This document shows positions 105 to 19,357 of a stretch of 19,357 nucleotides of DNA, in pieces. The translations under genes were made by a program, and so were the position numbers. The first letter of the stretch is position 1. Each line of letters begins with the position of its first letter. Below the pieces are notes generated by a model. That model searched no databases, had not been told where the DNA came from, and saw only the letters and a program-made list of their open reading frames with translations. The stretch covers positions 1 to 19,357 of the forward strand of contig JAGTWP010000001.1 of NCBI GenBank assembly GCA_018260755.1. The letters are read 5' to 3'. This DNA comes from Candidatus Altarchaeum sp. GTDB taxonomy: Archaea; Altiarchaeota; Altiarchaeia; Altiarchaeales; Altiarchaeaceae.

Positions 105-128
105 ACTTTTATTTTACTTTTATTTAAA

Positions 129-3276: not shown

Positions 3277-3315
3277 TTCAACTTGTTTTGAAAAAGAACA
3301 CAATAGATCTTACTT

Positions 3316-3693: not shown

Positions 3694-3746
3694 TTCAATT
3701 CATTTACTAATTTCAATTCATTTACTAATTTCAATACATTTACTAA
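3693..3746. repeat. 18-bp tandem repeat, three copies
   Basis: The unit TTTCAATTCATTTACTAA occurs at 3693-3710 and 3711-3728 exactly, and at 3729-3746 with one change. It fills nearly the whole gap between the ACT stop codon and the hjc start, touches both, and adds in-frame multiples of 18. On the minus strand each unit contains ATGAATTGA, a start-stop pair resembling the true hjc start ATGAATAAC. Confidence 0.85.
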
Positions 3747-4240: not shown

Positions 4241-4358
4241 TTTTCATTCGGTTAAAATTTATGTACTTGATTTGTTTGATTTGTTTATTAAATTAAGTTT
4301 AAAATTTAATTGTAATTACTTTAATCAATTAAGAGTTTGAAAAAATTTATAACTTAAT

Positions 4359-4442
4359 GCCGAGGTGGCAGAGTCCGGTAATGCGCACGCCTCGAGAGCG
4401 TGTTCCCGTGAGGGAATCAGGGTTCAAATCCCTGCCTCGGCG
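4359..4442 (+). tRNA. tRNA-Ser (anticodon CGA)
   Basis: Acceptor strands GCCGAGG and CCTCGGC pair fully, with discriminator G. The anticodon stem CACGC/GCGTG holds the loop CTCGAGA, giving anticodon CGA, which reads UCG. A long variable arm (TTCCC-GTGA-GGGAA) marks a class II serine tRNA. The T arm is CAGGG-TTCAAAT-CCCTG. CCA is not encoded and no intron is present. Confidence 0.97.
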
Positions 4443-4500
4443 AAAAATTTAACGATAAAAAATTTCAAATAAATTTTTATATGAATTCTAATTTTTAAGA

Positions 4501-4543
4501 AGTTATAAATTTAAAGAGTTATATATTTAAAGAGTTATAAATT
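4501..4543 (+). promoter_or_regulatory. Triplicated TATA-like 16-bp repeat before the ornithine cyclodeaminase gene
   Basis: AGTTATAAATTTAAAG (4501-4516), AGTTATATATTTAAAG (4517-4532) and the partial copy AGTTATAAATT (4533-4543) run head to tail. Each copy contains a TATA-box-like core. The second copy is centred about 33 bases before the ATG, close to leaderless spacing. The others would give a short leader or none that is usable. Promoter function is inferred. Confidence 0.6.
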
Positions 4544-4555
4544 AAATTTTTTAAA

Positions 4556-5767: not shown

Positions 5768-5775
5768 ATTTAATG

Positions 5776-5807
5776 TTAAAATCATTATTTATTAAAATCA
5801 TTATTTA
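5776..5807. repeat. 16-bp exact tandem duplication
   Basis: TTAAAATCATTATTTA occurs twice with no gap, just after the ornithine cyclodeaminase stop codon and before the next promoter. No function is evident. Confidence 0.8.
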
Positions 5808-5838
5808 TCATCAAAACTTAATTCATTTATAATTATTA

Positions 5839-5848
5839 TTTATTTATA
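5839..5848 (+). promoter_or_regulatory. TATA box for the small membrane protein gene
   Basis: TATTTATATC-type sequence is centred about 46 bases before the ATG at 5890. This predicts a leader of about 20 A-rich bases without a ribosome-binding site. It is the best TATA match in this 122-base gap. Confidence 0.4.
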
Positions 5849-5889
5849 TCCTAAAACTAATTAATAAACAATAATAAACAAAAACCAAA

Positions 5890-6243
5890 ATGGCAACGGA
5901 AAAGGGGTTGATCGTGTTGGCGACATTTTTTATAGTGATGTCGTTAACTACGAACATAGGGTTTGCTAAAGATGGTGCAGTAATAGAACTGTACGCAGCA
6001 ACTGTTTTGAACATCTTGGCAACCTTGGTGAAGGTATCAATGAAGAAAGGTGTTTTGGCAATGACTTCTCTGGGAGCAAGTGTTGTTTCAGACATACACT
6101 TGATAGCAGCAGTAGTTGTGTTGGGAAGTGATCCTGCTTTAGCAGCAGGTCTGGCATTTGGAGCAATTTTTGCAAATGTGGTTAGTGTTGCATTATTGCT
6201 TATGGAAAGCTATTTTGAAGCCAAGAAAGAATATTCGGAATAA
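5890..6243 (+). CDS. Small membrane protein, DUF6394-like
   Basis: 117 residues with about four hydrophobic segments (5-22, 32-50, 57-80, 82-106). Function is unknown. The pattern TFFIVMSLTTNIGF (11-24), then ELYAATVLNILATLVK (33-48) and a second half with SDIHLIAA (67-74) and FANVVSVALLLMES (93-106), resembles the DUF6394 family of small membrane proteins found in bacteria and archaea. That assignment is from memory of the family pattern and needs a profile search. No signal peptide or catalytic motif is visible. A strong oligo-T region follows, so the gene probably forms its own transcript after the ornithine cyclodeaminase. Confidence 0.6.
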   Translation: MATEKGLIVLATFFIVMSLTTNIGFAKDGAVIELYAATVLNILATLVKVSMKKGVLAMTSLGASVVSDIHLIAAVVVLGSDPALAAGLAFGAIFANVVSVALLLMESYFEAKKEYSE

Positions 6244-6271
6244 ACCAGGAGAAAAAACCAAAACAATATAA

Positions 6272-6302
6272 ATTTTATTTTTTTTATTTTTTTTATTTTT
6301 TT
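6272..6302 (+). terminator. Oligo-T transcription terminator region
   Basis: Three consecutive runs of seven to eight T, separated by single A residues, lie about 30 bases after the stop of the small membrane protein gene. Archaeal RNA polymerase terminates at such oligo-T tracts on the non-template strand without needing a hairpin. Confidence 0.65.
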
Positions 6303-6349
6303 ATAATAATTAATTAAATATTTCTTAAAATTCATACAATTAATAGACA

Positions 6350-6428
6350 TGTTGCAAAATAACTTTTCCACCTTTGAATTCCTTTAAATTTTATTTGTTT
6401 TCACCTTTAAAATTTTTAATTTGCAACA
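6350..6428. repeat. 79-bp element bounded by inverted TGTTGCAAA
   Basis: TGTTGCAAA at 6350-6358 is mirrored by TTTGCAACA at 6420-6428, with weaker complementarity continuing inward. The inner part contains two related CACCTTT segments. It could be a small MITE-like element, a hairpin, or the end of a decayed insertion sequence; nothing here decides between them. This is the core of the 353-base stretch 6244-6596, which otherwise holds the oligo-T tracts and a possible gene remnant. Confidence 0.4.
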
Positions 6429-6600
6429 ACTCTATTTTGTAAAGCAACATCATGCGGGGCAAATTTTTGAGAGATTTCTAAATTTATTCAAAAATACACA
6501 ACAAGAAAGAGTGTGGAGTAAGATAATTACAAATTCAAAATTAAAAAAGAGATTTGTTGATATTTGTTTTTATGTTGATGATAAAAATACACAAGTTTAA
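6388..6600 (+). pseudogene. Possible gene remnant without a start codon
   Basis: Seventy codons are open up to a TAA at 6598-6600, with no ATG, in DNA where a frame this long is unlikely by chance. The translated part has coding-like segments such as HHAGQIFERFLNLFKNTQQ, QERVWSKIITNSKLKKRF and VDICFYVDDKN. I do not recognise the family. It runs out of the inverted-repeat element and stops exactly at the 3' end of the isocitrate dehydrogenase gene. It could be a 3' fragment of a transposon gene cut by rearrangement, or chance. Confidence 0.25.
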
Positions 6601-7691
6601 CAAATTTCTCTTATTATTGCATCTGTCATTTGTTTTGTTCCGACTACTTTTTTAGGGTCCTTTGCTATGTCAAAGGTTACATATCTTTCGTCTTCAAAGA
6701 CCTTTGCAACCGCATTTTCCAAAATTTCAGCAGCTTTGTTTTCATTGATAAATTTTAACATCAGGACACCCGAAAGAATCAAAGATGCCGGATTTAGCAT
6801 GTTTTTGCCTTTAAATTCTGGTGCAGAGCCGTGAACCGCCTCAAAAACAGCACAATTTTCTCCTATATTTGCCCCCGGAGCAACACCTAATCCGCCAATC
6901 AAACCCGCACACAAATCACTTACAATGTCTCCGTATAAATTTGGTAGAACCAAAACATCATAATTTTCAGGAATAGTAACCAAATCCATGCACAAACTAT
7001 CAACTAATTTATGCTTAAATTTTATTTCAGGATAAATTTTTGAAATTTCTTCTGCGGCGTGCATAAATAAACCATCGCTAAATTTCATGATGTTTGACTT
7101 TGTAACTGCTGTTACACTTTTCCTGCTGTTGTCTTTTGCATATTCAAAAGCATACTTTGTAATTCTCTTACTCGCAAATTCCGAAATTGCCTTTATACTT
7201 ATTGCAGAGTTCTCTCTTATCTTTCCCTTATTTTTACTTTCAATAAATTTGAGCAGGTCATTTGTTTCTTCTTTATTATTTTCAAATTCAATTCCAGCAT
7301 ACAAATCCTCTGTATTTTCCCTTATTATAACAAGGTCAATATTTTCCGGATTGATTATTCTTGTTTTAATCCCTTTATAATATTTGCACGGCCGCAAGCT
7401 AACATACAAATCAAGTTTTTTTCTTAGTTCAACATTAACGCTTCTGAAGCCCTTTCCAAGTGGTGTTGTAACAGGACCCTTTAAGGCAATTTTATTTCTT
7501 TTTATTGAATCAATTACATAATCCGGCAAAGGTGTTCCTTCTTTTGCTACTATATCCGCACCAGCATCAAAAATTTCCCATTCAATATTTTTCCCGCATA
7601 TCTCCATTGCTTTATCAATTGCCCTTTTTGCCTGTTCTATTAGTTCAGGACCTGAACCATCACCTCTTATTAATGTTATTTTATGTGACAT
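6597..7691 (-). CDS. Isocitrate dehydrogenase, probably NAD-dependent
   Basis: Beta-decarboxylating dehydrogenase converting isocitrate to 2-oxoglutarate. The substrate loop RSVNVELR (83-90) has the Ser-x-Asn pattern (S84, N86) of isocitrate enzymes, where isopropylmalate dehydrogenases differ. R90, R100, R124, Y131 (in [10 protein letters not shown]), K198 and the Mg-binding aspartates D231, D255 and D259 are all present. The cofactor loop reads HGSAPEF (287-293). E292 sits where NADP enzymes carry Lys (K344 in E. coli), so NAD is favoured. At 364 residues it is slightly longer than the short archaeal/Thermus-type relatives. The gene is alone on its strand. Its start is abutted by about 225 bases of pyrimidine-rich repeat in which no clear TATA box can be picked. 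An isopropylmalate or homoisocitrate enzyme is less likely. Confidence 0.82.
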
Positions 7692-7918
7692 CTTTATTCT
7701 TATTTTTATTTTATTTTTATTTTATTCTTATTTTTTTATTCTTATTCTTATTTTATTCTTATTTTTTTATTCTTATTTTATTCTTATTTTTTTATTCTTA
7801 TTTTATTCTTATTTTATTCTTATTCTTATTTTATTCTTATTTTATTCTTATTTTATTCTTATTTTTTTATTCTTATTCTTATGTTATTCTTATTTTATTC
7901 TTATTCTTATTTTATTAA
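7692..7918. repeat. Low-complexity TTATTCTTATTTTA-type repeat array
   Basis: About 225 bases made only of shuffled TTATTCTTA, TTTTA and TTTTTTTA words, with a single G near 7883. It starts one base before the isocitrate dehydrogenase ATG and therefore forms the immediate upstream region of that gene on the minus strand, as a purine-rich AATAAGAATAAAA-like stretch. It fills most of the 353-base gap 7692-8044. The rest (7919-8009) is AT-rich and should hold the peptidase promoter, but no box is clear. Length variation by slippage is likely. Confidence 0.85.
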
Positions 7919-8009
7919 ATTTTTTAAATTTAACTTTTATTTTTGTTTATTAAATTTTTAATCGTTAAATTTTTAAATTTTAAGCACATATTTTATTATT
8001 TAATCAATT

Positions 8010-8048
8010 ATGACTAATCTACAAAAAACACATATCTACCAAAAATGA
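8010..8048 (+). other. 12-codon upstream ORF overlapping the peptidase start
   Basis: ATG at 8010 opens a 12-codon frame (MTNLQKTHIYQK) whose TGA overlaps the peptidase ATG as ATGA. Its first six codons resemble the peptidase's own MTNIQK, so a roughly 35-base duplication of the start region is likely. It could couple translation or be a by-product of the duplication. Confidence 0.35.
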
Positions 8049-9082
8049 CAAACATACAAAAAAATAGAATCCGAAATATTAAAGAAGAAATCAGGGAGAA
8101 AAAGGCATTACTGATTTATAATCCGAAAAATTTATATTATCTGTGCGGAATTGAGGGCTTTGGAGCAGTCGGATTATTAACTTCTGAAAAATTTACATTA
8201 TTTTTAAACGAAAATGATTATGAACTCGCTGCCGATAAAAACCTCGCTCATGAAGTCCGTGTAGAAATTTATAAAAAAGGAATTGTGAAGGATACGGTAA
8301 AAGAAGGACTCAAAAAAGGCAAAATTTCAGAAATTTTTGTTGATAATATTTATGGGGAAGCACTGAGAAATTTGGAAAATGTAATCGGAAGAAGAATAGA
8401 AATATATGATGTTGTTGAGAGAGCAAGGATGCTCAAAACAGATGATGAGATTGAAAATATAAGAAAAGCATGCGAGATTGCAAGAAAAGGTATCAAATTA
8501 GCAAGAAAAATTTATCTGTCAGAAAAGCGAATTAGCGAACACAATCTGGCAGCGGAGATTGAATATTTTATGAAGAGGCAGGGAAGTGAAGGAACATTTG
8601 AAGATGGAATATTGCTTGCCTGCGGAAAAAATGCAGCACACATTCATGCAAAGCCGTCAGACAAAATAATTGATGATGCAATGCTTGTCGATTTGGGAGC
8701 AAAATTTAGCAATTATTTTTCCGATTTCAGCAGGACTTTTACAGAAAGAGCAGAAGATAATGAAGTTAAAAAGCATGCTGAATTCATAGAAAATTTAGAA
8801 AGGACATGTATTGATAAAATTTATACGGGAATGAAAATCTCGGAAATTTCAAAATTTGCCGATAAAAAGATAGAAGAAAATGGCTTTAAACTTTTACATT
8901 CACTCGGGCACGGTGTCGGATTAGATGTTCATGAACTGCCTAATATAAACAATAATTCAGAAACGGAATTTGCAGAACATACAGTTTTTACAATTGAGCC
9001 GGGAATTTACAAGGCAAATAGATTCGGAATAAGATTTGAAGATACATGCGTAATAAAAAACGGAAAAGCAAAAATTTTGTAA
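8045..9082 (+). CDS. M24 family Xaa-Pro peptidase (aminopeptidase P/prolidase-like)
   Basis: Dinuclear-metal peptidase removing or cleaving at X-Pro bonds; cytosolic. The N-terminal creatinase-like domain (about 1-125, ALLIYNPKNLYYLCGIEG) is followed by the pita-bread catalytic domain. All five metal ligands are visible: D216 (VDLGAKF), D227 (SDFSRTF), H289 (LGHGVGL), E318 (TIEPGIY) and E332 (RFEDT). The second-shell His residues lie in AAHIHAKPS (198-205) and VHELP (295-299). At 345 residues it matches the archaeal PepQ/aminopeptidase P size. Dipeptidase and aminopeptidase activity cannot be told apart by sequence here. The start ATG is the one overlapped by the upstream mini-frame. An in-frame alternative is not needed, because the domain begins within 20 residues. 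Confidence 0.9.
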   Translation: MTNIQKNRIRNIKEEIREKKALLIYNPKNLYYLCGIEGFGAVGLLTSEKFTLFLNENDYELAADKNLAHEVRVEIYKKGIVKDTVKEGLKKGKISEIFVDNIYGEALRNLENVIGRRIEIYDVVERARMLKTDDEIENIRKACEIARKGIKLARKIYLSEKRISEHNLAAEIEYFMKRQGSEGTFEDGILLACGKNAAHIHAKPSDKIIDDAMLVDLGAKFSNYFSDFSRTFTERAEDNEVKKHAEFIENLERTCIDKIYTGMKISEISKFADKKIEENGFKLLHSLGHGVGLDVHELPNINNNSETEFAEHTVFTIEPGIYKANRFGIRFEDTCVIKNGKAKIL

Positions 9083-9091
9083 ATCAAAAAA

Positions 9092-9451
9092 TCAACTTAA
9101 AATTTTACTCATAACTCCTCCTATTTTTCTTTTCATTTCTTCTGTTTTTGTCTTTGTGATTGAGTCAAAAACATCCTTTGATTTTTGAGCGGCATAATCG
9201 GAAAGCCCTTCTTTTGTATTTTTTTGTATTTTTTCTTTTATTAATTTGTAACTCATATCTGTTGCTTTATCTTTCATGACTTTGCCAAGATTTGTTTTTA
9301 AATTTTTGGTAATTATATCCCCTGCTTCTTTTTTTATATTTGTTTCTAAATTGCTCTTTATTAAATTTCCCGCTATGTTGTTATCTTTGACTTTTTTTTC
9401 TACCTTTTTTTTCATATCTTTCCTTATTTTTGAAACAGTTGTATTTTCCAT
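9092..9451 (-). CDS. Lysine-rich orphan protein, helical
   Basis: I do not recognise this protein. It is 119 residues, with very high Lys plus Glu/Asp and no Cys, Trp, Pro or His. Small hydrophobic residues are spaced for a continuous amphipathic helix (for example KKKVEKKV, NLIKSNLETNIKK, KLIKEKIQK). No signal peptide or membrane segment is present. The composition recalls LEA-like or coiled-coil stress proteins, but it is not alanine-rich as LEA proteins usually are. It is convergent with the peptidase gene, with nine bases between stops, and divergent from tRNA-Arg. It may be a lineage-specific gene; coding status rests on the long open frame, a start near the tRNA promoter region and good spacing. 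Confidence 0.6.
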   Translation of the reverse strand: MENTTVSKIRKDMKKKVEKKVKDNNIAGNLIKSNLETNIKKEAGDIITKNLKTNLGKVMKDKATDMSYKLIKEKIQKNTKEGLSDYAAQKSKDVFDSITKTKTEEMKRKIGGVMSKILS

Positions 9452-9502
9452 ATTGTAAAAATATCGGATTTAAATTTTAATAAATAACCTTATAAAATAA
9501 AT

Positions 9503-9512
9503 AAATTTATAA
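9503..9512 (+). promoter_or_regulatory. TATA box for tRNA-Arg
   Basis: AAATTTATAA is centred about 41 bases before the tRNA 5' end, predicting a start site around 9534 and a 15-base leader for RNase P removal. Confidence 0.5.
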
Positions 9513-9548
9513 TATGAAGGTACAAATATAAAATATAAAGTGATTTTT

Positions 9549-9622
9549 GCCCAAGTGGGGTAGCATGGATATCCTGGAGGCCTGCGGAGCTTCCGACCCG
9601 GGTTCAAATCCCGGCTTGGGCG
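9549..9622 (+). tRNA. tRNA-Arg (anticodon GCG)
   Basis: Acceptor strands GCCCAAG and CTTGGGC pair fully, with discriminator G. The anticodon stem GAGGC/GCTTC (one G-U pair) holds the loop CTGCGGA, giving anticodon GCG, which reads CGU/CGC. The T arm is CCGGG-TTCAAAT-CCCGG. CCA is not encoded. Confidence 0.93.
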
Positions 9623-9682
9623 ATTTCAAATACAAAAAGTATTTAAAATCTTCGAGTGAAACGAGGTGATTTCAAAATGAAA

Positions 9683-9772
9683 TTTTGAAAATATCCGAAA
9701 GATTTTGAAAATCGTAGATATTTTGAAAATATCCGAAAGATTTTGAAAATCGTAGATATTTTGAAAATATCC
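9683..9772. repeat. 38-bp tandem repeat of nested palindromes, 2.4 copies
   Basis: Two exact 38-bp units (9683-9720 and 9721-9758) are followed by 14 more matching bases. The units alternate two perfect palindromes: GATTTTGAAAATC (9701-9713, 9739-9751) and GATATTTTGAAAATATC (9717-9733, 9755-9771), separated by CGAAA and GTA. There are no unique spacers, so it is not a CRISPR array. Confidence 0.9.
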
Positions 9773-9787
9773 AACGGAGTAAGATTA

Positions 9788-9805
9788 TTTCAAACTTGTT
9801 TGAAA
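9788..9805. repeat. Perfect hairpin TTTCAAAC/GTTTGAAA
   Basis: TTTCAAAC-TT-GTTTGAAA, an 8-bp stem with a two-base centre. It is part of the palindrome cluster after tRNA-Arg. Confidence 0.75.
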
Positions 9806-9880
9806 ATGCACAAAAGAAGTGGGCGTAAGTAAGGTTATTTCAGGATTTTAAATTCAGAGATTTTCATGCAATTCAAATAA

Positions 9881-9898
9881 GTAAGGTTATAACCTTAC
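9881..9898. repeat. 18-bp perfect palindrome
   Basis: GTAAGGTTATAACCTTAC is fully self-complementary. Its left half also appears at about 9830-9837 as GTAAGGTTAT-like sequence without the mirror half. It lies 63 bases past the rps17 stop on the rps17 strand. It could be a protein-binding site or a processing hairpin. Confidence 0.75.
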
Positions 9899-9960
9899 GG
9901 ATGTTTTTTGAAAATTTCACGGATAAATTTGACGCCTTTTGAATAGTTGCACTTCGTAAT

Positions 9961-10218
9961 TTAAGATAATTTTTCAGTAACAACAAAGGCAACATTTTTT
10001 CCGGTTCTTCTGCATTCTTCCGCCTTGACATTATCTCCTGCTTTTACATCTAAATTTTCCGGAACTCTTGCTAAAATTTTTGTCCTTGCTTTTGAATATC
10101 TTTCATACTTTCTGATTTTGACAAGACGGTCATTTCTTATGCATACTACCTTCTTTGCTTTTGCATTAACTACAACTCCCACTATATTTTTACCCCTGAT
10201 TGATAATTTTTCTACCAT
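9961..10218 (-). CDS. rps17: Small ribosomal subunit protein uS17
   Basis: Primary 16S rRNA-binding protein with an OB fold. The core reads RGKNIVGVVVNAKAKKVVC (8-26), KYERYSKARTKILARVPENL (37-56), then VKAGDNVKAEECRRTGKNVAFVV. KYERY and AECRPLSKTK-like elements are archaeal in style. At 85 residues it is the length of bacterial S17; archaeal S17 is usually 105-115 residues, with an N-terminal extension containing a Cys/His segment (C-CPWHG type) that is missing here. The upstream in-frame codons do not encode it. It is the last ribosomal gene of the cluster, 104 bases after rnp1, with a TATA box in the gap. Confidence 0.88.
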   Translation of the reverse strand: MVEKLSIRGKNIVGVVVNAKAKKVVCIRNDRLVKIRKYERYSKARTKILARVPENLDVKAGDNVKAEECRRTGKNVAFVVTEKLS

Positions 10219-10261
10219 TTTTGATATATTACTAAAAGTTAATTGTGTTAAAATTAATTAA

Positions 10262-10275
10262 ATTTATATATAAAT
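10262..10275 (-). promoter_or_regulatory. TATA box upstream of rps17
   Basis: ATTTATATATAAAT lies about 50 bases before the rps17 ATG in an otherwise gene-free 104-base gap. It is the strongest TATA-like match in the ribosomal cluster. It suggests that rps17 can be transcribed separately from the genes before it. The sequence is symmetrical, but no gene faces the other way. Confidence 0.45.
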
Positions 10276-10322
10276 AAAATTTGTATAAATCGGAAATTAT
10301 TAGAAATAATTAGAAATGCAAA

Positions 10323-10649
10323 CTAAAATTTAAAAGAAATTTTATAGTGTTTTTTAATTCGTTCTTCGGGTCTGCCCAACATCAAATTCCCATCTATTTT
10401 AACAACACTTCTATCATCTAATTGTGTTGTAAGTATTATTGAATTCTTCGGAAACATTTTTATATTATTGTTGCGGTCTTCAATCAGAAACACGTTTTTT
10501 GTTTCTTTATAAACTTTACCCCGCATTTTGTAACTTTCACCGCTGAGCGGCATGACATCAACATCAAGACCTGTCATTTCATGCCTCAAAATATTAAAGG
10601 GATTTCGCATATTGAATAATCTCACATCGTTCGGAAATACAAAAATCAA
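10323..10649 (-). CDS. rnp1: RNase P protein component 1 (Rpp29/p29 homologue)
   Basis: Protein subunit of archaeal RNase P, which with Rpp21 supports the RNA-cleaving core during tRNA 5' maturation. Family marks are NPFNILRHEMTGLDVDV (16-32), GKVYKETKNVFLIE (44-57), MFPKNSIIL and VKIDGNLMLGRPEERIKK (83-100). The length of 108 residues is normal. Position between aIF1 and S17 is the classic archaeal location. The first 13 residues are weakly conserved in type, so M14 is an alternative start. Eleven bases separate it from aIF1, implying one transcript. Confidence 0.92.
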   Translation of the reverse strand: MIFVFPNDVRLFNMRNPFNILRHEMTGLDVDVMPLSGESYKMRGKVYKETKNVFLIEDRNNNIKMFPKNSIILTTQLDDRSVVKIDGNLMLGRPEERIKKHYKISFKF

Positions 10650-10660
10650 ACACTAAAAAA

Positions 10661-10999
10661 TTACTTTTTTCTTGGAGGTCTCTCTTTTCTCACAGGTCTG
10701 TCTTTAACATCCATCTTTTCTTTTGGAAAACCCAATTTTATCAGGATGTCTTCTATTTTGCTTTTATGATCCCCTTGTAGTTCAATAATATTTCCTTCTC
10801 TTATTGTTCCTCCGCATCCCAACCGCCTTTTAATTTCTCTTGCAGTATTTTCTATATTTTCTTTATCTATTCCGTCTATAATTGTCACCACCTTATGGTA
10901 CTTCCTGTTATCAAATGACACAAATATTCCTTCTGTTGTTTTTATTTCCTTACAAACACACAACTCTTCGGGAAGTCCACACTTAGGACAAATAGCCAT
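10661..10999 (-). CDS. Translation initiation factor aIF1 (SUI1)
   Basis: Start-site selection factor on the 30S subunit. The N-terminus has the archaeal Cys pattern CPKCGLPEELCVC (4-16), followed by the SUI1 domain: KVVTIIDGIDKENIENTARE, LGCGGTIREG (60-69) and IELQGDHKSKIEDILIKLGF. The basic tail RPVRKERPPRKK (101-112) is a modest extension beyond the usual end. It lies between rpl29 and rnp1 in conserved archaeal order, with short gaps. Confidence 0.94.
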   Translation of the reverse strand: MAICPKCGLPEELCVCKEIKTTEGIFVSFDNRKYHKVVTIIDGIDKENIENTAREIKRRLGCGGTIREGNIIELQGDHKSKIEDILIKLGFPKEKMDVKDRPVRKERPPRKK

Positions 11000-11022
11000 T
11001 GCTTTTTATTTTTTAAAAATTA

Positions 11023-11235
11023 TTAGGATTGCTTATTTTTTTCTTTTTCGTGTTTTATTGTGAGTAATCGCGCAATGGTTCTTTTTATTTCTCTTATTGA
11101 ACCGATGGATTCAGACGAAATTCCCGCTGAAATATCGCTTTTTATTTTCATTTTTCTTTTATGTAGATCTTTAAGATGCTCTTCCGTATCATCTGCATTC
11201 ATTTCCCTTAATTCTTTTGCCCTAAGAATAGCCAT
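11023..11235 (-). CDS. rpl29: Large ribosomal subunit protein uL29
   Basis: Two-helix protein near the nascent-chain exit. ILRAKELREMN (3-13), LHKRKMKIKSDISAG (24-38) and the basic helix IREIKRTIARLLTIKHEKE (47-65) are typical. The 70-residue length is normal. It follows rps3 after a 49-base AT-rich gap, as in other archaeal clusters. Confidence 0.93.
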   Translation of the reverse strand: MAILRAKELREMNADDTEEHLKDLHKRKMKIKSDISAGISSESIGSIREIKRTIARLLTIKHEKEKNKQS

Positions 11236-11284
11236 TTATTAATAAATTAAATTTATTTGAATAAATTTATTTGAATTAAAAAAT

Positions 11285-11938
11285 TTATTTTTTGTTTTCT
11301 GTGGATCGAACAGGTGCGGATGTCGGTATGTTTTTCTTTTGCAGGGTCCTAAAGATTATCTGGTCCGGAAATTTTAGATCCCGGGGAAGAATATCTACGC
11401 TAATACCTATAATCCCTTGTTTTAGCCGTGCCTGCATTTTGGCGTGTCTTACCATAGTTAAAGGAAATCCTGTCTTTTTCATATATCCTTTTCTAAATTT
11501 TTCAGTTGTTCCCCGTTCACCTTTACCTTTAATTTTTCCCGACAGGTTTATTTCAACTCCTAATGCACCGTGTGCCATCACAGCATCAACTGCTCTGTGA
11601 GCAACTATTCTGTATCTGTCTCCTCTTTCAATCGCATCACCTATTTCCTCTGCCATAATATTTGCATCTAAGTACGGCTCTTTAACCGCTTGAACATCCA
11701 CATTCGGGTCATCCATCTTAAATTTTTCCTTCAGATCTTCGGTAAGCTGGTTTATTTTAGTTCCAGCATGTCCTATTACCAATGGTGGTCTTTCGACATT
11801 AAGAATTATTCTCGTTGAGAGAGATCCCTTATGAATGTCCATTTTACTATATCCTACCTTGCCCAAAGTACTTTTTATATATTTTTCTACAAACATCCTG
11901 TTTTTTCCTTTTTCTATAAATATTTTTTTTACAGACAT
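11285..11938 (-). CDS. rps3: Small ribosomal subunit protein uS3
   Basis: 30S head protein lining the mRNA entry channel. The type II KH domain includes RPPLVIGHAGTKINQLTEDL (50-69). The C-terminal domain has GALGVEINLSGKIKGKGERG (122-141) and the QGIIGISVDILP strand. The length of 217 residues fits archaeal S3 without the longer acidic tails some carry. Its ATG is two bases from the rpl22 stop, so translation is probably coupled. Confidence 0.95.
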   Translation of the reverse strand: MSVKKIFIEKGKNRMFVEKYIKSTLGKVGYSKMDIHKGSLSTRIILNVERPPLVIGHAGTKINQLTEDLKEKFKMDDPNVDVQAVKEPYLDANIMAEEIGDAIERGDRYRIVAHRAVDAVMAHGALGVEINLSGKIKGKGERGTTEKFRKGYMKKTGFPLTMVRHAKMQARLKQGIIGISVDILPRDLKFPDQIIFRTLQKKNIPTSAPVRSTENKK

Positions 11939-11940
11939 TT

Positions 11941-12471
11941 TTATATACGAATTTCTTTTTTCATTTCTTTTTTATTCTTTTTCGTAGTTGTATTTTTTAT
12001 CTTTTCATTTTCTTTCATTTCTTCAAGAACAATCTGAATATGTGTAACCCTTGTTGCCCATGTGGCCCTTCTTCCTGTTGGCTTTGCTTTTTTTCTCTTT
12101 GCCCCCTGAAGTGCCTGAATATGTGAAATTATTAAATTTTTTGTATCTATTCCCGGCTTATGTTCAGCATTCCTCTCTGCACTCCTTAGTAATTTTAGGA
12201 CCTCTTTACATATCTTTACTGGATATCTTCCCGGACCACCTTTTCCACCTATTGCAGAACGATGTCCCGCACCTTTACAAAATTTTACATAAGGAATAAA
12301 ATCCTTAAAGGCAATCACATTATCTAAATATTTCATTGCGTTCTCCATTTTCATTCCTTTGAGCGCTTTTACTACATTTACAGATGCCTTAAAGGAAACA
12401 TCCAAATCCTTTCCGCATACCTTTACCTCTTTTTCAGGTGTCTTTGAAATATAAGTATAACCAATTTCCAT
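11941..12471 (-). CDS. rpl22: Large ribosomal subunit protein uL22
   Basis: Exit-tunnel protein. Core marks are FKDFIPYVKFCKGAGHRSA (55-73), PGRYPVKICKEVLKLLRSAE (80-99), NLIISHIQALQGAKRKKAKP (112-131) and ATWATRVTHIQIVLEE (136-151), the last being the tunnel hairpin end. At 176 residues it is about 20 longer than usual. The extra part is a Lys/Glu/Thr-rich tail with several AT-rich codons, suggesting a low-complexity extension. Conserved order S19-L22-S3 is kept. Confidence 0.94.
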   Translation of the reverse strand: MEIGYTYISKTPEKEVKVCGKDLDVSFKASVNVVKALKGMKMENAMKYLDNVIAFKDFIPYVKFCKGAGHRSAIGGKGGPGRYPVKICKEVLKLLRSAERNAEHKPGIDTKNLIISHIQALQGAKRKKAKPTGRRATWATRVTHIQIVLEEMKENEKIKNTTTKKNKKEMKKEIRI

Positions 12472-12509
12472 TTTAGGGTATTTTAATATTTGATATGATT
12501 TATTTAAAA

Positions 12510-12929
12510 TTACTTCCTCAGGGAAGTAAATTTAGACCCTCTTGTAGCACCAAGACCTGCCGCACTATGTTTTACTGTCTTTCTTGTCATAACAAATTCT
12601 CCGAGATAATGTCCTATCATTTCGGATGTAATTTCAACAGGTATAAACGCAGTTGGATTTACACTATCCTTGCCTCCCCTATGGACTGCTATTTTTGCTC
12701 CTACCATTTCGGGAAGTATTGGCATGTCCCTTGACTGTGTTTTTATTACCTTGTTTTTATTCGTTGTTAATGTTTTTCTTATTTTCAGTAATAATTTTCT
12801 TCTAGGTTCATCCAAGCCCCTGTTCAAAACCCTTCTTATTCTTGAGGGCATAACCTTTGCTAGCTCGTCCATGGACAGTGCTTTTAACTGGTCTGTTGTT
12901 TTTCCCCGGTAATTAAATATTCTCGCCAT
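12510..12929 (-). CDS. rps19: Small ribosomal subunit protein uS19
   Basis: 30S head protein. KTTDQLKALSMDELAKVMPS (10-29) and RRVLNRG (33-39) are the archaeal N-terminal part. DMPILPEMVGAKIAVHRGG (68-86), AFIPVEITSEMIGHYLGEF (92-110) and the C-terminal KHSAAGLGATRGSKF are the conserved rRNA-contacting parts. The length (139) is typical. Gaps of 38-48 bases separate it from rpl22 and rpl2. Confidence 0.95.
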   Translation of the reverse strand: MARIFNYRGKTTDQLKALSMDELAKVMPSRIRRVLNRGLDEPRRKLLLKIRKTLTTNKNKVIKTQSRDMPILPEMVGAKIAVHRGGKDSVNPTAFIPVEITSEMIGHYLGEFVMTRKTVKHSAAGLGATRGSKFTSLRK

Positions 12930-12977
12930 TTTTTATATCTGTTCTTAAACTTAGTTAATTTTTAAATTTTTTAAATT

Positions 12978-13697
12978 TTATGCCCTTTTCTTTTTCCCGC
13001 TTCTTTTTGCAGCAATAAGTCCGACCTTTGCACCCGGCGGAGCATTTCTGCTTACTGTTGTAGAATGTCCAAGTCGCGGTTCTTTTCCACCGTGCGGATG
13101 ATTAACAGCGTTCATTGAGATACCTTTGATGTTCGGATATTTCTTGCCTCTTGCTTTATGTTTGTAATAATTTGTTCCTGCACGAATTAATGGTTTTATG
13201 ACTCTTCCCATAGCAGCAACCCTTCCGATAGTAACAATGCTGTTAAGAGAAATAAGTTTATCCTTCTTTGAAGGTAAAATAATTTTTCCGTTATTTCCAA
13301 CTCCTTCTACAAAAGTTACGGATGTACCGCTTGTTCTTGCCATACGGTAATTACCATATTGAACATTACATATTTGCGTTCCCGGATTGATGCTCTTTAA
13401 CATAGTTATATTTCCAACAGACGGTTCTGCATTTATTCCGATTTTTATGTGCTGCCCCACCCAAAGTCCATCAATGGCAATAACATAAATCTCTTTTAAA
13501 TCCTCGGTCAAAATTTTTGCCAAAGGTGCCGTATGAATCTGATCTTTAATTATATCAACAACCTGTCCCATAATTGTTTTTCCGTTTGTAAAAATTTCCA
13601 TAATCTGTGAATAATCAATTCTGTTACTTCTGAATGACTTTGATCTCCATACACTGCTGCCTTTTCCCCTTCTTTGGCATTGTAAATTTTTTGGCAT
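12978..13697 (-). CDS. rpl2: Large ribosomal subunit protein uL2
   Basis: Peptidyl-transferase-centre protein required for subunit joining. The 239-residue length matches archaeal L2. RRGKGSSVWRSKS (9-21), the central beta-barrel part, and the conserved AVNHPHGGKEPRLGHSTTV segment (197-215) with its essential His are intact. A TATA-like ATAAATTTAAATATAAAT sits just before the start, as with several genes of this cluster, so internal promoters are possible. Confidence 0.96.
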   Translation of the reverse strand: MPKNLQCQRRGKGSSVWRSKSFRSNRIDYSQIMEIFTNGKTIMGQVVDIIKDQIHTAPLAKILTEDLKEIYVIAIDGLWVGQHIKIGINAEPSVGNITMLKSINPGTQICNVQYGNYRMARTSGTSVTFVEGVGNNGKIILPSKKDKLISLNSIVTIGRVAAMGRVIKPLIRAGTNYYKHKARGKKYPNIKGISMNAVNHPHGGKEPRLGHSTTVSRNAPPGAKVGLIAAKRSGKKKRA

Positions 13698-13751
13698 TTT
13701 TATGTCTGATTATAAATTTAAATATAAATTTTACTTTTTTATTATTTTTTA

Positions 13752-14000
13752 TTATATCGCTCCGAATCTTGATGCAATATCTACTGCCGAATATTCCGGC
13801 ATGAGTTTTGCATAAACCTTTTTCATTCCGTGAATAATGGTGGTATTAACTTTTATTACCTTTATTTTATAATCCCTTTCTAATTCTTCTTTAATTTGTT
13901 TTTTTGTTGCATTAATATCAACAGCAAAAGAAAGTGCATTATTTTTTTCCCTTAAATTTACTGCCTTTTCCCCCATCAGCGGATAAAGTATAACTCCCAT
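13752..14000 (-). CDS. rpl23: Large ribosomal subunit protein uL23
   Basis: Exit-site protein that docks SRP and chaperones. ILYPLMGEKAVNLREKNNAL (4-23), FAVDINATKKQIKEELERDY (25-44) and VIKVNTTI (48-55) followed by KKVYAKL fit the family. The 82-residue length is typical of archaea. It sits between rpl4 and rpl2, 31 and 54 bases away. Confidence 0.95.
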   Translation of the reverse strand: MGVILYPLMGEKAVNLREKNNALSFAVDINATKKQIKEELERDYKIKVIKVNTTIIHGMKKVYAKLMPEYSAVDIASRFGAI

Positions 14001-14031
14001 CTTAATTAATGTTAATTAAATTTTTAAATTT

Positions 14032-14694
14032 TCATTTAAATATTTCAGTTGCTTTTTTTGTCCATAGGACATTGTCTATTAATTTTGATCCGAGAACAAA
14101 ATCATTTACCTGTAAATCCAATACATTCCTTACTTTGATAAAATCAATATTTCTTGCAGTAATATCATTATCTTCAACAACAAATAAAATTTTCTTGTCA
14201 TTGACTATGTTCTTCTCTTTAAGTAAATTTATGAAATTTAACACATCCTTTGCTTTTTTTAAATTTTCAACATCATCCGAAACAACCGCAAATTTTGCAT
14301 TTGCAATTGCAGAATACATTGCTAATTCGTATTCTTTGTTGTTTATCTTCTTTATTAATACTTTATTAACTTCCTGCGGATGTGCTGCCCTCCCGCCAAC
14401 TGATTCCGGAACTCTTCTGACTCTTCCAAGCCCTCCTTTTGCTAATTTTTCTCTTGGTTTCCTTGATATTGCCTTGCCTACTGTTACTCTGAATGACCTT
14501 TGTCTGTTTCCAAAATAATCGGCACTTGTTCTTAAGCCCGCTAACGGATCCCTTCCCTGCGGTTGAAATGTTTCCGATATCTCTGAGACCACAGCTCTTT
14601 GAATTATATCCTGTCGTAAGGGGGTGTTAAAAATTTCGCCGAGTGTTACCGATTCAACAGCTTCTCCGTTCAAACCGTAAACCTTTACATCCAT
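14032..14694 (-). CDS. rpl4: Large ribosomal subunit protein uL4
   Basis: Exit-tunnel protein. The N-terminus MDVKVYGLNGEAVESVTL and PLRQDIIQRAVVSEISET (25-42) are typical. The long tunnel loop (about 45-110, with RTSADYFG, then GGLGRVRRVPESVGGRAAHP at 87-106) is present. At 220 residues it is about 30 shorter than most archaeal L4; the loss appears spread over the C-terminal half rather than a truncation. An AAATTTATATTTAA box lies about 26 bases before the ATG, at leaderless spacing, so a promoter inside the cluster is plausible. Confidence 0.94.
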   Translation of the reverse strand: MDVKVYGLNGEAVESVTLGEIFNTPLRQDIIQRAVVSEISETFQPQGRDPLAGLRTSADYFGNRQRSFRVTVGKAISRKPREKLAKGGLGRVRRVPESVGGRAAHPQEVNKVLIKKINNKEYELAMYSAIANAKFAVVSDDVENLKKAKDVLNFINLLKEKNIVNDKKILFVVEDNDITARNIDFIKVRNVLDLQVNDFVLGSKLIDNVLWTKKATEIFK

Positions 14695-14779
14695 TGTGAT
14701 TTAATAATTACTTTAAATTTATATTTAACAATTGAAATTAGTATTAAAATTTATCATATCTTTTATCATATCTCTAAAT

Positions 14780-15757
14780 TTATCTAACAATTATTTCTTT
14801 TAAGTCATATTTTTCTTTTGTTTCTGTGTTATATGGATTGAAAGACAAACCAAGCACTCTTTTTGTTGTGCCAGGAACGGAACCTTTTACCAGCACATAT
14901 TTTGTATTTAAAACGCCGAAATTTAAAAATCCTCCTTTCGGAGTTATGTTTTCGTTTGAAATTTTAAGTAACAGTTTATTTATTTCTGATCTCATATGAT
15001 AGCCCATTTGTCCTGCCTGTGGTGCTCTCCATGAAGTATGTCGCGGTGTAACTGGATTTAAGGGACAGTGTCTTCTTTTTCCGGTTACTTTTCTGCCCTG
15101 GGTTATAATTCCCCATCTTTTAACCGCACCCTGCCATCCCTTTCCTTTCGTAACACCACTAACGGCAATAAGAATATTTTCTTTGAATATATTGTCAACA
15201 TTTATCTCCTTTCCGAAATTTTCCTTTGCAAAATTTATCTGGCTGTTAATGTCACCTCCTATTGGAATTTCAAGTATGTCTGGTTTTTTCTTTATACTTA
15301 ACAATCTCGGATTTGTACAACAAAGCAACCTGACTTCCTCAATTCCATCCTTGTCACGTTCTATATCCTCAAATTTTTTTGAAATAATCTCAGTGCTGTT
15401 ATTTTTGGATAAATTTATCGCTCTGCTTAAGTCCTTGTCTGATTTTTCTGAAATTATATCAGTGTAAGGCATTAAATTTAAGTATGGTTTGTGATAAAAT
15501 CTGATACCGAATACCTTTAACGGAGGGGTTGCTATAATTGTGCATGGAATTGCCATATTTAACTTGTTTGTCGGCGAATTCGGAGTATTATCCGTTGCCA
15601 TAATATGTACCATTCCGACCTTATAGCCGGCAAATCCCGATGGAATTGTTCCTAAATTTTTATCCTCTCTTTTTTTTATCTTCGGTACTGTTCTGCTTGC
15701 TCTTTGTCTCGGGCTGTATGCTAATGAACCTCGTCTTGGTTTCGTCTTTTTTGCCAT
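14780..15757 (-). CDS. rpl3: Large ribosomal subunit protein uL3
   Basis: First gene of the ribosomal cluster. RRGSLAYSPRQRA (8-20), GFAGYKVGMVHIM (41-53), VSGVTKGKGWQGAVKRWG (207-224) and WRAPQAGQMGYHMR (251-264) are the conserved archaeal/eukaryotic L3 segments, including the Trp finger region near the peptidyl-transferase centre. 325 residues is slightly short for archaeal L3. The region upstream is shared with the divergent J-domain gene and contains an 8-bp inverted repeat and more than one TATA-like box. Confidence 0.95.
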   Translation of the reverse strand: MAKKTKPRRGSLAYSPRQRASRTVPKIKKREDKNLGTIPSGFAGYKVGMVHIMATDNTPNSPTNKLNMAIPCTIIATPPLKVFGIRFYHKPYLNLMPYTDIISEKSDKDLSRAINLSKNNSTEIISKKFEDIERDKDGIEEVRLLCCTNPRLLSIKKKPDILEIPIGGDINSQINFAKENFGKEINVDNIFKENILIAVSGVTKGKGWQGAVKRWGIITQGRKVTGKRRHCPLNPVTPRHTSWRAPQAGQMGYHMRSEINKLLLKISNENITPKGGFLNFGVLNTKYVLVKGSVPGTTKRVLGLSFNPYNTETKEKYDLKEIIVR

Positions 15758-15825
15758 CTTTTGTATTTTTGAATATTTTGAATATAATAATTAAAATTTG
15801 AATAATAATTAGGAAAGGATATATT

Positions 15826-15849
15826 AAAACCAATTTAAATTTTGGTTTT
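15826..15849. promoter_or_regulatory. Inverted repeat in the divergent rpl3/J-domain promoter region
   Basis: AAAACCAA at 15826-15833 is mirrored by TTGGTTTT at 15842-15849 around TTTAAATT. It lies about 70-90 bases from both divergent start codons and touches a TATA-like ATATATTAAA (15819-15828) facing rpl3. It may be an operator controlling the ribosomal cluster, the J-domain gene, or both. It is symmetric and well placed but has no demonstrated binder. Confidence 0.4.
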
Positions 15850-15916
15850 TATTTTTGGGAAAATTTATAAAAATGTCTAATTATAAACTTAAAAATTATT
15901 TAAATAACACTAAGAA

Positions 15917-16669
15917 ATGAATGAGTCCGACTATTATAAAATTTTGGAAATAAGCAGGAATGCAACAAAGGATGATATTAAGCAGGCATACAGAAAACTG
16001 GCAATGCTGTATCATCCTGACAGAGCATCCGCTGACATGAAAAAGATAAATGAGGAAAAATTTAAAGAAATAGCAGAAGCATATGCGATATTAAGCAATG
16101 ATGAAAAAAAGGCACAATATGATGAATCTGAACGATGCAGGGATGAAAGAATAAGAGCTGAAAGAGGAAAAAGAGTATGGGATGAAAGAATAAGAGCTGA
16201 AAGAGGAAAAAGAGTATGGGATGAAAGAATAAGAGCTGAAAGAGGAAACGGAAGAATGAGTGGGCAAAACAGAGAATATATTTACAAAACATCACTGGGA
16301 CATGGTAATTTTTTCTCCGTTATCTTATTTTGTGCCGGCATGGTTGTTTTAAGCAATAATATTGTCGCAGCAATGTTGACGGGAATAGTATGTTATTTAT
16401 TCCTTGTGAAAATTGCAAAAATAACAAATCACAATTCTTTTATACTGTTTGTAATGATTTTGGTCGGGCTTGTTGCTTTGGGGATCAATATTAGTGCTGC
16501 AATTGCAGCAGGTGTAATATTCACACTTGTTGCTATAATATTTAAATATATTTTTTCTTTTATGCTGATCTGCGGAGGGCTTGTTATTTTAGGAATTAAT
16601 ATTATTCCTGCACTTGGAGCTGCTTTAATATTCATCGCTGCAGGCAAAATATTTAAAACAAAACGATAA
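15917..16669 (+). CDS. Membrane-anchored J-domain protein with tandem repeats
   Basis: The N-terminal J domain (about 4-70) begins [20 protein letters not shown] (5-24), has HPD at 33-35, and ends [17 protein letters not shown], so it should stimulate an Hsp70. None of the DnaJ Gly/Phe, zinc or C-terminal client domains follow. Residues 76-111 are a charged linker of nearly identical 13-residue repeats ([13 protein letters not shown], twice complete and once partial). Residues 130-246 hold three copies of a hydrophobic hairpin with a shared core ([40 protein letters not shown]), each about 35-40 residues. The protein is thus a cytosolic J domain on an arm over a six-segment membrane part. It is divergent from rpl3 and is followed by the PsiE-ACT gene. 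No dnaK or grpE is in the window. Confidence 0.85.
16142..16249 (+). repeat. 39-bp in-frame coding repeat, 2.8 copies
   Basis: Units at 16142-16180 and 16181-16219 are identical at nucleotide level, and 16220-16249 matches for most of a third unit. Identity including third codon positions means recent expansion. Each unit encodes 13 residues, so unit loss or gain keeps the frame. Confidence 0.92.
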
Positions 16670-16717
16670 ATTTTATCAGCCAAAACATATTTTTAAACAA
16701 AAAACATATTGATAAGA

Positions 16718-17395
16718 ATGATAAAATTTATTAAAATACAAAAAATGGAAAAATTTCCCACGCCATTAAGGCATTTAAAATTTACAACTGCAATTCTTGA
16801 CTATATATTTATTGTCTTACTTGTGCTCGTTGTAGGTGTTGGATTTTATGAATTTGTAAGTGTTTTGTATATGCAGATAACATCGGGAAAGACGGACTTT
16901 ATGCCGTTGTTAGGCTCTTTATTTGTTGTCTTAATCGGACTGGAATTGCTGAAATTAAGTTTAACTGCTAAAAGAGGGGGCGTAAATTTTTACATTATAG
17001 CAATTCTTGATATTGTAATGATTGCCCTGGCAAGGAAAATAATTTTATTGTCTCCGAAAACCATTATTGATATTTATGAATATTTTGCAATCGGATTTAT
17101 TATGCTCGTAATACTTATAGTCATAAAATTTATGCCCGCGCCGTTTGCTCTGACACTTAAAAATCAGTTACATTTATATACAATAGTAAAAGACGAAGTC
17201 GGGGCACTTAACAAAGTTACATATCTGCTGAAAAATTTAAATATAAATCTGTCAAAGGTTGAAGTTGTCCCTATTGGCGATGGAAAATCATCGCTTAATG
17301 CAACACTTGATTTAAAAAACACAAATTTAAGCGAAGATGAAATTGAAGAAAAGCTGGGTGAGTTAGATGTTGTATTTAAAGCAAAAGTCAGGTAA
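16718..17395 (+). CDS. PsiE-like membrane domain fused to a C-terminal ACT domain
   Basis: Four membrane segments (about residues 24-55, 62-81, 90-110, 116-140 from this start) contain FIVLLVLVVGVGFYEF, VVLIGLELLKL and FYIIAILDIVMIALARKII, which match the PsiE family (phosphate-starvation-inducible E; biochemical role unknown). From about 151 the protein continues LHLYTIVKDEVGALNKVTYL and on to VVFKAKVR, an ACT-like beta-alpha-beta unit with the DEVGAL ligand-loop pattern. PsiE proteins normally end after the membrane part, so this is a fusion suited to sensing a small ligand on one membrane face. Starts at TTG 16709, ATG 16718 or ATG 16745 are possible; 16718 is chosen because an ATTTTTAAA box sits about 26 bases before it. 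It follows the J-domain gene by 48 bases, so co-transcription is possible. Confidence 0.72.
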   Translation: MIKFIKIQKMEKFPTPLRHLKFTTAILDYIFIVLLVLVVGVGFYEFVSVLYMQITSGKTDFMPLLGSLFVVLIGLELLKLSLTAKRGGVNFYIIAILDIVMIALARKIILLSPKTIIDIYEYFAIGFIMLVILIVIKFMPAPFALTLKNQLHLYTIVKDEVGALNKVTYLLKNLNINLSKVEVVPIGDGKSSLNATLDLKNTNLSEDEIEEKLGELDVVFKAKVR

Positions 17396-17412
17396 AAATA
17401 TCAGATTTATTG

Positions 17413-18471
17413 CTAAATTTTAAATTTTTTCTTTGCACTTGCGATTAGTCCTATCGGCCCTGTCATCATCATATCTCCGCCTGGAGATGCAAAGTAATAA
17501 TCAAGTTCCGTTTCTTTTATTAAATTTCTGTTAGGTCCCGTGACAACTACTTTCTTTATATTGTCAAATCCGATGGTTTCAAATATTATTGCACCGTTTC
17601 CGCCGTCATTATAAATTTCCTCATTTGTAACATTTCCATCGGCAAATTTCCTCATTAAATTTTTAACCTTTTCCGGATCTTTCAGACATTTTGTATGATG
17701 TTCCATATAACTTATAACTTTGTCATTATGAATTACTGCAAAGGTCGTGTGTCCATTTCCGAAATTTATAAGCATGTAATTATTTAAGTCCTTTACATAT
17801 TCGTCCTGCATACATCCGAGAACCGCACAATGGGCGGTGTCCATTATTAACACATTATCTCTTTGTAATTTTAATGACTTAAACAGCGATTTAAGGCGGT
17901 AAAAACTATTATCTATTTCATCATAACTTATCATTGCCAAATCCCTGAAGTCCTTAAATTTGCTTAATTTTTCCTTAAAGACCTTAAATCTATAAACCCT
18001 GTTTGAAATATTTTCTCTTGCTCCGTGTTCCTGAACGGCATAACAAACGGCACCAAATTCGTCGAAACCAGAAAAATTTTTAAATATACTCAAATCACTT
18101 TCGGAAAATTTCATAATTTCATCAACATCTTTAGTCACTTTTTCAAGAGCGCTTTCTTCTATAATTTTTACATTAAAATCGCCTGATTTTTCTCCGTGAT
18201 ATGTAAATGTTTTGAATGCCTCTTCGGTAATAAAAATTTCCTTTTTACTTCCCGCATACTTCAACGCTTTCTTTATTTTTCCGCCGCCAATGCAGTCGCC
18301 ATAAATCAGCAGTCGTTTTTTGTCCGAATCTGCAAATTTAAATAATTCATCGGCATAGAGCAAAGAAGGTGCCGGAAGTACCATTTTAAAACAATTTTCA
18401 AGGTTTTTGTTTGAATCATAAAGTAAAATATCCTGTGTTCCCGCTCCAATATCTACTGCTAAAAGTTTCAT
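17413..18471 (-). CDS. DUF1786 protein, ASKHA (actin/Hsp70/acetate kinase) fold
   Basis: COG4012/DUF1786 protein, an uncharacterised family mostly of archaea, sometimes mislabelled as pyruvate formate-lyase activating enzyme. From the ATG at 18471 it opens with KLLAVDIGAGTQDILLYD (2-19), a phosphate-1 loop of the ASKHA ATPase fold. A second nucleotide-binding-like strand is YMLINFGNGHTTFAVI, and DGGNGAIIFETIG with VVVTGPNR forms the adenosine-side part. The C-terminus SPGGDMMMTGPIGLI is typical of the family. 352 residues is normal. An upstream TTG (18498) would add nine residues; the ATG places the conserved strand at residue 2 as expected. It is tail-to-tail with the PsiE-ACT gene (17 bases) and head-to-head with cobS. 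An ATP-dependent activator role (like BcrA/BadF or HgdC) is conceivable but unproven. Confidence 0.82.
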   Translation of the reverse strand: MKLLAVDIGAGTQDILLYDSNKNLENCFKMVLPAPSLLYADELFKFADSDKKRLLIYGDCIGGGKIKKALKYAGSKKEIFITEEAFKTFTYHGEKSGDFNVKIIEESALEKVTKDVDEIMKFSESDLSIFKNFSGFDEFGAVCYAVQEHGARENISNRVYRFKVFKEKLSKFKDFRDLAMISYDEIDNSFYRLKSLFKSLKLQRDNVLIMDTAHCAVLGCMQDEYVKDLNNYMLINFGNGHTTFAVIHNDKVISYMEHHTKCLKDPEKVKNLMRKFADGNVTNEEIYNDGGNGAIIFETIGFDNIKKVVVTGPNRNLIKETELDYYFASPGGDMMMTGPIGLIASAKKKFKI

Positions 18472-18531
18472 TTTAAATTTTTTTATGTTGCTAGGCAATT
18501 AATTGATTAACAAAAAGTAAATAAAATAAAG

Positions 18532-18558
18532 AAATAAAACAAATAAAACAAATAAAAC
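18532..18558. repeat. 9-bp tandem repeat before cobS
   Basis: AAATAAAAC occurs three times exactly, ending six bases before the cobS ATG. It forms the presumed 5' leader or promoter-proximal region. Confidence 0.7.
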
Positions 18559-18564
18559 AAAACA

Positions 18565-19353
18565 ATGAACCCGATAATGAACGAAATAAAAAAATTTTTG
18601 TGTGCAATTCAGTTTTTAACAATAATAAAGCTCAAATCTATTGAATGGGATGAAAAATTTACGGCAAAATCAGTCGCTTATTTTCCAGCAGTTGGAATTT
18701 TAATCGGATGTATTTTGGCAATCACCTATTTTATTCTTTCTCCTGTTTTTCCCAATACAATAACAGCGGTTATGCTCATAGTCATTGAAATAATATTTAT
18801 AAGAGGACTGCATTTGGACGGATTTATAGACACCGTTGATGGCTTATTCGGGGGAATGAATAAAGAAGAACGGCTGCGAATTATGAAGGATACCCATCCC
18901 GGCAGTTTTGGAATTATTGCTGTTGTATTATTAATTTTGCTTAAATTTACCTTAATTTTTGAAATTTTAAATTTAAATCAGGATAAAGTTTCTATTGCGA
19001 TTTTAATATTGATGCCGACACTTGGAAGATATGCGATGCTCATTCCGATGGCAATTCAGCCATACGCGCGCAATAACGGAACAGCACATTGGACAAAATT
19101 TGTTAAATTCAGGGAAATTTTAACTGCGAGTTTATTTATGATTTCCCCTGTAATTTTAATATCTGTTTTTCTAAATTTAAAAATATTTTTGTTAATAGCA
19201 CTAATAATTGCATTGCTCATTTTTTCTCTGATGCTGTCAAAATATATTGCTTCAAAAATCGGAGGGATGACAGGAGATACTTACGGCGCGCTCACTGAAA
19301 TTTCAGAAATTTTTGTATTGATTGTATTACTTGCATTTGTTTTATGTCTTTGA
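18565..19353 (+). CDS. cobS: Adenosylcobinamide-GDP ribazoletransferase (cobalamin synthase)
   Basis: Integral membrane enzyme joining alpha-ribazole (or its phosphate) to adenosylcobinamide-GDP in the last steps of B12 synthesis. The signature LHLDGFIDTVDGLFGG (82-97) carries the acidic metal/phosphate residues, followed by RIMKDTHPGSFGI (105-117) and the C-terminal GGMTGDTYGALTEISE (241-256 region). About six membrane segments and 262 residues are normal. M5 is an alternative start. The gene is complete; its TGA is one base before an ATG at the window edge, so a further gene, likely also for cobalamin synthesis, probably follows in the same transcript. No cobalamin riboswitch is seen upstream. 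Confidence 0.93.
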   Translation: MNPIMNEIKKFLCAIQFLTIIKLKSIEWDEKFTAKSVAYFPAVGILIGCILAITYFILSPVFPNTITAVMLIVIEIIFIRGLHLDGFIDTVDGLFGGMNKEERLRIMKDTHPGSFGIIAVVLLILLKFTLIFEILNLNQDKVSIAILILMPTLGRYAMLIPMAIQPYARNNGTAHWTKFVKFREILTASLFMISPVILISVFLNLKIFLLIALIIALLIFSLMLSKYIASKIGGMTGDTYGALTEISEIFVLIVLLAFVLCL

Positions 19354-19354
19354 A

Positions 19355-19357
19355 ATG
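19355..19357 (+). other. Possible start codon of the next gene, cut by the window edge
   Basis: ATG begins one base after the cobS TGA (TGAAATG). The tight spacing suggests a coupled downstream gene, but no coding sequence is visible to test this. Confidence 0.3.

Follow-up and report, generated by a model that had tools for sequence, protein, structure and literature searches.

The locus analysed here raises the question of whether a PsiE-like membrane protein of Candidatus Altarchaeum sp. ends in a genuine ACT domain and, if so, what such a domain would do on a membrane bundle. PsiE takes its name from phosphate-starvation induction in E. coli, where it is also encoded in a heat-resistance island with chaperones (PMC7010813), and in the literature searched we found no established molecular or biochemical function for it. 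Throughout, the window is the whole stretch of DNA that was analysed (19,357 nucleotides; contig JAGTWP010000001.1, positions 1 to 19,357). An initial annotation of the window had read a frame starting at 16718 as a PsiE-like domain fused to an ACT domain, an unusual combination that would give the membrane protein a small-molecule input, and had suggested that it may form a two-gene unit with a J-domain membrane protein encoded 48 bases upstream. The gene and its parts are as follows.

16745..17395 (stop included), forward strand: PsiE-ACT fusion gene, 216 aa, with a start kept in four genomes
16799..17125, forward strand: PsiE domain, residues 19-127, with four transmembrane helices (PF06146)
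17159..17392, forward strand: ACT domain, residues 139-216, placed by profiles, hhalign and VIA-align
17192..17209, forward strand: ligand-loop motif D150-E-V-G153-A-L155, placed by the archaeal ACT alignment

The frame is real and continuous, and it is intact in all four Altarchaeum genomes. An ORF finder placed its start at 16709 and the initial annotation at 16718, but the start common to the genus (4/4 genomes, with an N-terminus of MEKF or MKKF) is ATG 16745, which on this comparison is probably the true one; it lies 27 nt inside the position first annotated and makes the gap to the J-domain gene 75 bp instead of 48. Purifying selection acts on both halves of the protein, the dN/dS values across the four genomes being 0.16-0.45 in the membrane half and 0.17-0.27 in the ACT half. 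A counterpart in a Candidatus Altarchaeum sp. HURL_140 contig shares 89% identity with it, and no PADLOC entry matched either the fusion or the J protein.

For the membrane half, a profile run bore out the PsiE assignment: PF06146 scored 37.2 bits over residues 19-127, above the curated Pfam cut-off of 23.9. An AlphaFold2 model together with hydropathy places four transmembrane helices at residues 9-47, 53-74, 80-101 and 109-129. Alignment of archaeal PsiE domains revealed a glutamate in helix 2 (E67) that is conserved in 33 of 37 domains, and a basic pair in helix 3 (R97 in 34/37 and K98 in 27/37), all of which PsiE-ACT keeps. Lysine-plus-arginine values across the family are 2.3 for the N-terminus, 1.5 for loop 2 and 3.1 for the C-terminal tail as against 0.5 and 0.6 for loops 1 and 3, a bias that, by the positive-inside rule, would put both termini and loop 2, which joins helices 2 and 3, inside the cell. 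Bare PsiE proteins (PF06146; E. coli and many archaea) have the same four-helix domain, the helix-2 glutamate, the helix-3 arginine-lysine pair and the same predicted topology, but the members checked stop soon after helix 4, whereas PsiE-ACT continues into its ACT part. Three of the four Altarchaeum genomes also encode a second, bare PsiE gene of ~140 residues. Fold searches with the whole model returned matches that were all filled by the ACT half, and none of them bear on the PsiE half.

Judged from the sequence of PsiE-ACT alone, the ACT assignment would be marginal: PF13291, PF22629 and PF01842 all match inside residues 144-210 but reach 19.6-21.2 bits where the cut-off is 27. Such scores would suit an ordinary PsiE tail that resembles ACT by chance, but that reading is refuted and retains next to no probability: the protein runs about 90 residues further than other archaeal PsiE proteins, which when they carry no ACT part end ~3-44 residues past the domain, and ACT matches above the cut-off are found both in a same-genus orthologue (L006; ACT_4, 27.7 bits) and in a fusion from a different archaeal phylum (L042 of genome G149; PsiE 36.7 and ACT 39.7 bits, each past its cut-off). 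Profile-to-profile comparison by hhalign and structural modelling stand against it as well. The four ACT parts aligned by hhalign to archaeal AbrB-ACT proteins with an E-value of 4.7e-10 and a probability of 96.7 over 72 columns, and both AbrB-ACT proteins scanned (2/2) match PF01842 at or above the cut-off. The AlphaFold2 model, built from a 46-row alignment, reached an overall pLDDT of 86.7 (~95 in the ACT part) and consists of four long helices followed by beta-alpha-beta-beta-alpha-beta, which is the order of the ACT fold. The best VIA-align match of the ACT part was 6wo1_B, an acetohydroxyacid synthase small subunit (Z 12.6, rmsd 1.7, 76 residues), and Foldseek and VIA-align matches included IlvN, homoserine dehydrogenase, SerA, AF1403 and the C-terminal domain of MgtC, a fold agreement that is not independent of the sequence comparison because the 46-row alignment contained soluble ACT domains. 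The fold is a common one, and the matches also include the ferredoxin-like S6 and EF-1 beta, which are non-sensors, and NikR. A low-confidence model (pLDDT 53) from the four genus sequences alone had its strands and helices in the same order as the 46-row model. Together, the L006 profile score, the hhalign comparison, the 46-row model and the matches to solved structures settle the assignment, and the C-terminal part of PsiE-ACT is a genuine ACT domain; the initial annotation was right on this point, even though the protein's own best profile score (21.2 against 27) falls short.

Comparison with known systems sets this domain beside likely regulators. Its closest sequence relatives, the archaeal AbrB-ACT proteins (NCBIfam PRK08577, NF006352), carry an N-terminal MazE/AbrB-type hairpin domain where PsiE-ACT has a membrane domain, and other close ACT relatives carry further C-terminal domains, which we take to be V4R-like and DUF5612. 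Its best structural match, the acetohydroxyacid synthase small subunits IlvN/IlvH, are soluble regulators of branched-chain amino-acid synthesis enzymes, whereas PsiE-ACT is a membrane protein. MgtC (PDB 2lqj), one of the fold matches, is likewise a small multi-helix membrane protein with a C-terminal ACT fold, a divergent one according to Yang et al. (2012; cited in PMC4469704); its membrane part belongs to the MgtC family and not to PsiE, and it serves as an earlier example of an ACT domain at the end of a small membrane protein. Four loci in the genomes searched (L098, L099, L144 and L146) encode an AbrB/MazE-like N-terminal hairpin with a C-terminal ACT domain (PRK08577) and are possible metabolite-responsive regulators; the literature searched held no paper joining ACT with AbrB in archaea.

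Evaluating the domain for a binding site, we found that the DEVGAL loop picked out by the initial annotation is present in each of the four genus genomes, where it reads D-E-V-G-(A/T)-L. Among aligned archaeal ACT domains D150 is conserved in 13/14, G153 in 14/14, L155 in 13/14 and N168 in 12/14, and PsiE-ACT has the ligand-loop pattern D/N-x-x-G-x-L plus the following asparagine. Presumably D150, G153 and N168 lie at the position of the serine site of SerA and the valine site of IlvN/IlvH, and the conserved loop and asparagine make a small-molecule input plausible. Among ACT-like folds, some bind metal (NikR) and others bind nothing, and the domain might instead be a ligand-free pairing module that joins at least two PsiE bundles or serves as a docking site for a soluble ACT protein. 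The ACT fold is in itself a dimerisation module and ACT domains usually pair, the genome encodes several other ACT proteins that could serve as partners, and the gene neighbourhood lacks a pathway context for a ligand, all of which would suit pairing alone; yet the conserved ACT residues include the ligand loop (D150, G153, N168) and not just sheet-packing positions, and most close ACT relatives resemble regulators, such that we regard a purely structural role as unlikely, if worth keeping in mind. Elsewhere, at 3743-4240 on the reverse strand and near a tRNA-Ser, the window encodes another small ACT-domain protein of 165 aa, whose match is below the Pfam cut-off.

The combination is as unusual as first suggested, since the other archaeal PsiE genes checked lack an ACT part and some carry protoglobin instead. 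The PF06146 searches took in 29 genomes from the window's phylum, 297 relatives drawn from the whole domain, 23 genomes of another phylum and 395 around a further centre, and the fusion profile was run on 393, 395 and 398 genomes, in overlapping sets that cover about 1,150 archaeal genomes overall. Among these, full-length PsiE-ACT is limited to G149 and the four Altarchaeum genomes, and within the window's phylum (29 genomes) PsiE is confined to the genus Altarchaeum. Other long archaeal PsiE frames (up to 303 aa), read individually, have no ACT part, and protoglobin fusions apart, their excess length lies upstream of the domain. The PsiE-domain tree has long branches and open forks and does not separate one fusion origin from two. 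No relative of either PsiE-ACT fusion appeared in tblastn searches of plasmids, through which bacteria were covered, and viral contigs likewise yielded none. These analyses confirm PsiE-ACT as a rare, conserved and new combination of two known families.

In another archaeal phylum, locus L010 (1486-2385, reverse strand) encodes an N-terminal protoglobin (PF11563, 89.7 bits) joined to PsiE (PF06146, 70.9 bits), and similar frames lie at L011 and L055. Protoglobin is a haem sensor-type domain, and as in PsiE-ACT a PsiE domain is thus joined to a sensor-type domain, except that the extra domain is protoglobin at the N-terminus in the one and ACT at the C-terminus in the other. No paper joining PsiE with protoglobin was found in the literature searched.

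Turning to the neighbourhood, two features lie directly upstream of the fusion.

15917..16669, forward strand: gene for a J-domain membrane protein (DnaJ PF00226, 83 bits)
16681..16715, forward strand: upstream element CAAAACATATTTTTAAACAAAAAACATATTGATAA, 35 bp with a TATA-like core, probable promoter

If PsiE-ACT and the J-domain membrane protein worked as one membrane-stress or nutrient-sensing unit, one would point to their adjoining, same-strand genes in the window, to the same order in G003 and to the E. coli PsiE encoded with chaperones in its heat-resistance island (PMC7010813). The genus, however, does not keep this arrangement. The J gene adjoins PsiE-ACT in one of the four genomes, that of the window; in G003 the J gene and the upstream element stay together but are split from PsiE-ACT by an insert of 1607 bp that resembles a mobile element and carries TIR and PIN genes; and full-length J homologues were found in G000 and G003 only, not in G001 and G002, each of the four genomes being incomplete (65-87%). 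In G001 the 827 bp upstream of PsiE-ACT contain no J gene, and the L042 fusion has neighbours unrelated to these, a GPN-type GTPase gene (few-base overlap) and then a PAC2 gene.

The upstream element adds to this picture. It starts twelve bases past the end of the J-domain gene (16669) and is present in exactly one copy each in G000, G002 (identical) and G003 (1 mismatch), while it was not found in G001; a reversed control pattern gave no hits in those genomes, and 200 window shuffles gave 0. In G002, where it occurs without a J gene, 30 bp separate its end from the PsiE-ACT start, and the sequence farther upstream is unrelated to the J gene. The pattern suggests that PsiE-ACT is probably transcribed from its own promoter, the 35-bp element. 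Given the split in G003, the J absences, the separate element and the L042 neighbours, the proposed two-gene unit is not supported, and we consider it very improbable.

The insert in G003 (L001 4366-5972) has 13-bp inverted ends, GTAACTATTCAGC, and an 8-bp border repeat, TATAAAAT; its genes are one for a TIR domain, with a ThsB-like profile match, a small ORF and one for a PIN protein of the VapC type, and no transposase gene was seen within its 1607 bp. The 13-bp end occurs 15-50 times per Altarchaeum genome (G000-G003) against 0 for a reversed-pattern control and, going by these counts, is a genus-wide repeat or insertion family. Within the window, 16134-16250 holds three in-frame 39-bp repeat copies, the last diverging, which lie in the linker of the J protein and are fewer in the G003 homologue, and 7505-7918 on the forward strand is a low-complexity repetitive LFLFYFYF stretch that is probably a simple-sequence repeat and not a gene.

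Our preferred explanation, to which we give roughly even chances, is that an ACT dimer in the cytoplasm binds an amino-acid-like ligand and thereby controls the PsiE bundle, where ligand, dimer, orientation and output are each inferred. The PsiE four-helix bundle would carry its C-terminal ACT domain on the cytoplasmic side (N-in/C-in), and transcription of the gene would probably start at a promoter of its own. Two subunits would pair through their ACT domains, an amino acid or similar metabolite would bind at the D150-G153/N168 interface, and binding would alter PsiE helix packing and hence membrane activity. Because no clear metabolic pathway gene beside the fusion is common to both phyla, the ligand cannot be guessed from context. 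One special case of this explanation names the output, in that the bundle would move a solute or ion as a metabolite-gated transporter or channel with the ACT domain as its allosteric valve; the intramembrane E67 and the R97-K98 pair would fit with a polar route across the bundle, but the literature searched gives no transport function for PsiE, and we think this version quite unlikely.

Between readings, the presence of the closest ACT relatives on likely regulators, taken with the protoglobin-PsiE proteins, favours a regulatory role, and the recurrence of the ACT fusion in two archaeal phyla alongside the protoglobin fusions points in the same direction, namely that PsiE answers to a signal. 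Extending this to the family, PsiE might be a membrane output module mounted on interchangeable sensors, with ACT for a metabolite and protoglobin for gas or redox state, and PsiE proteins would then be ligand-controlled effectors and not passive stress proteins; we offer this as a tentative and somewhat doubtful generalisation. The fusion itself suggests that an intracellular small molecule can control PsiE proteins. The ligand pocket of ACT domains is well understood, and the fusion therefore offers a way into PsiE, in that identifying the ACT ligand would reveal which signal a PsiE protein responds to, and the main value of PsiE-ACT is that it makes testable what PsiE responds to.
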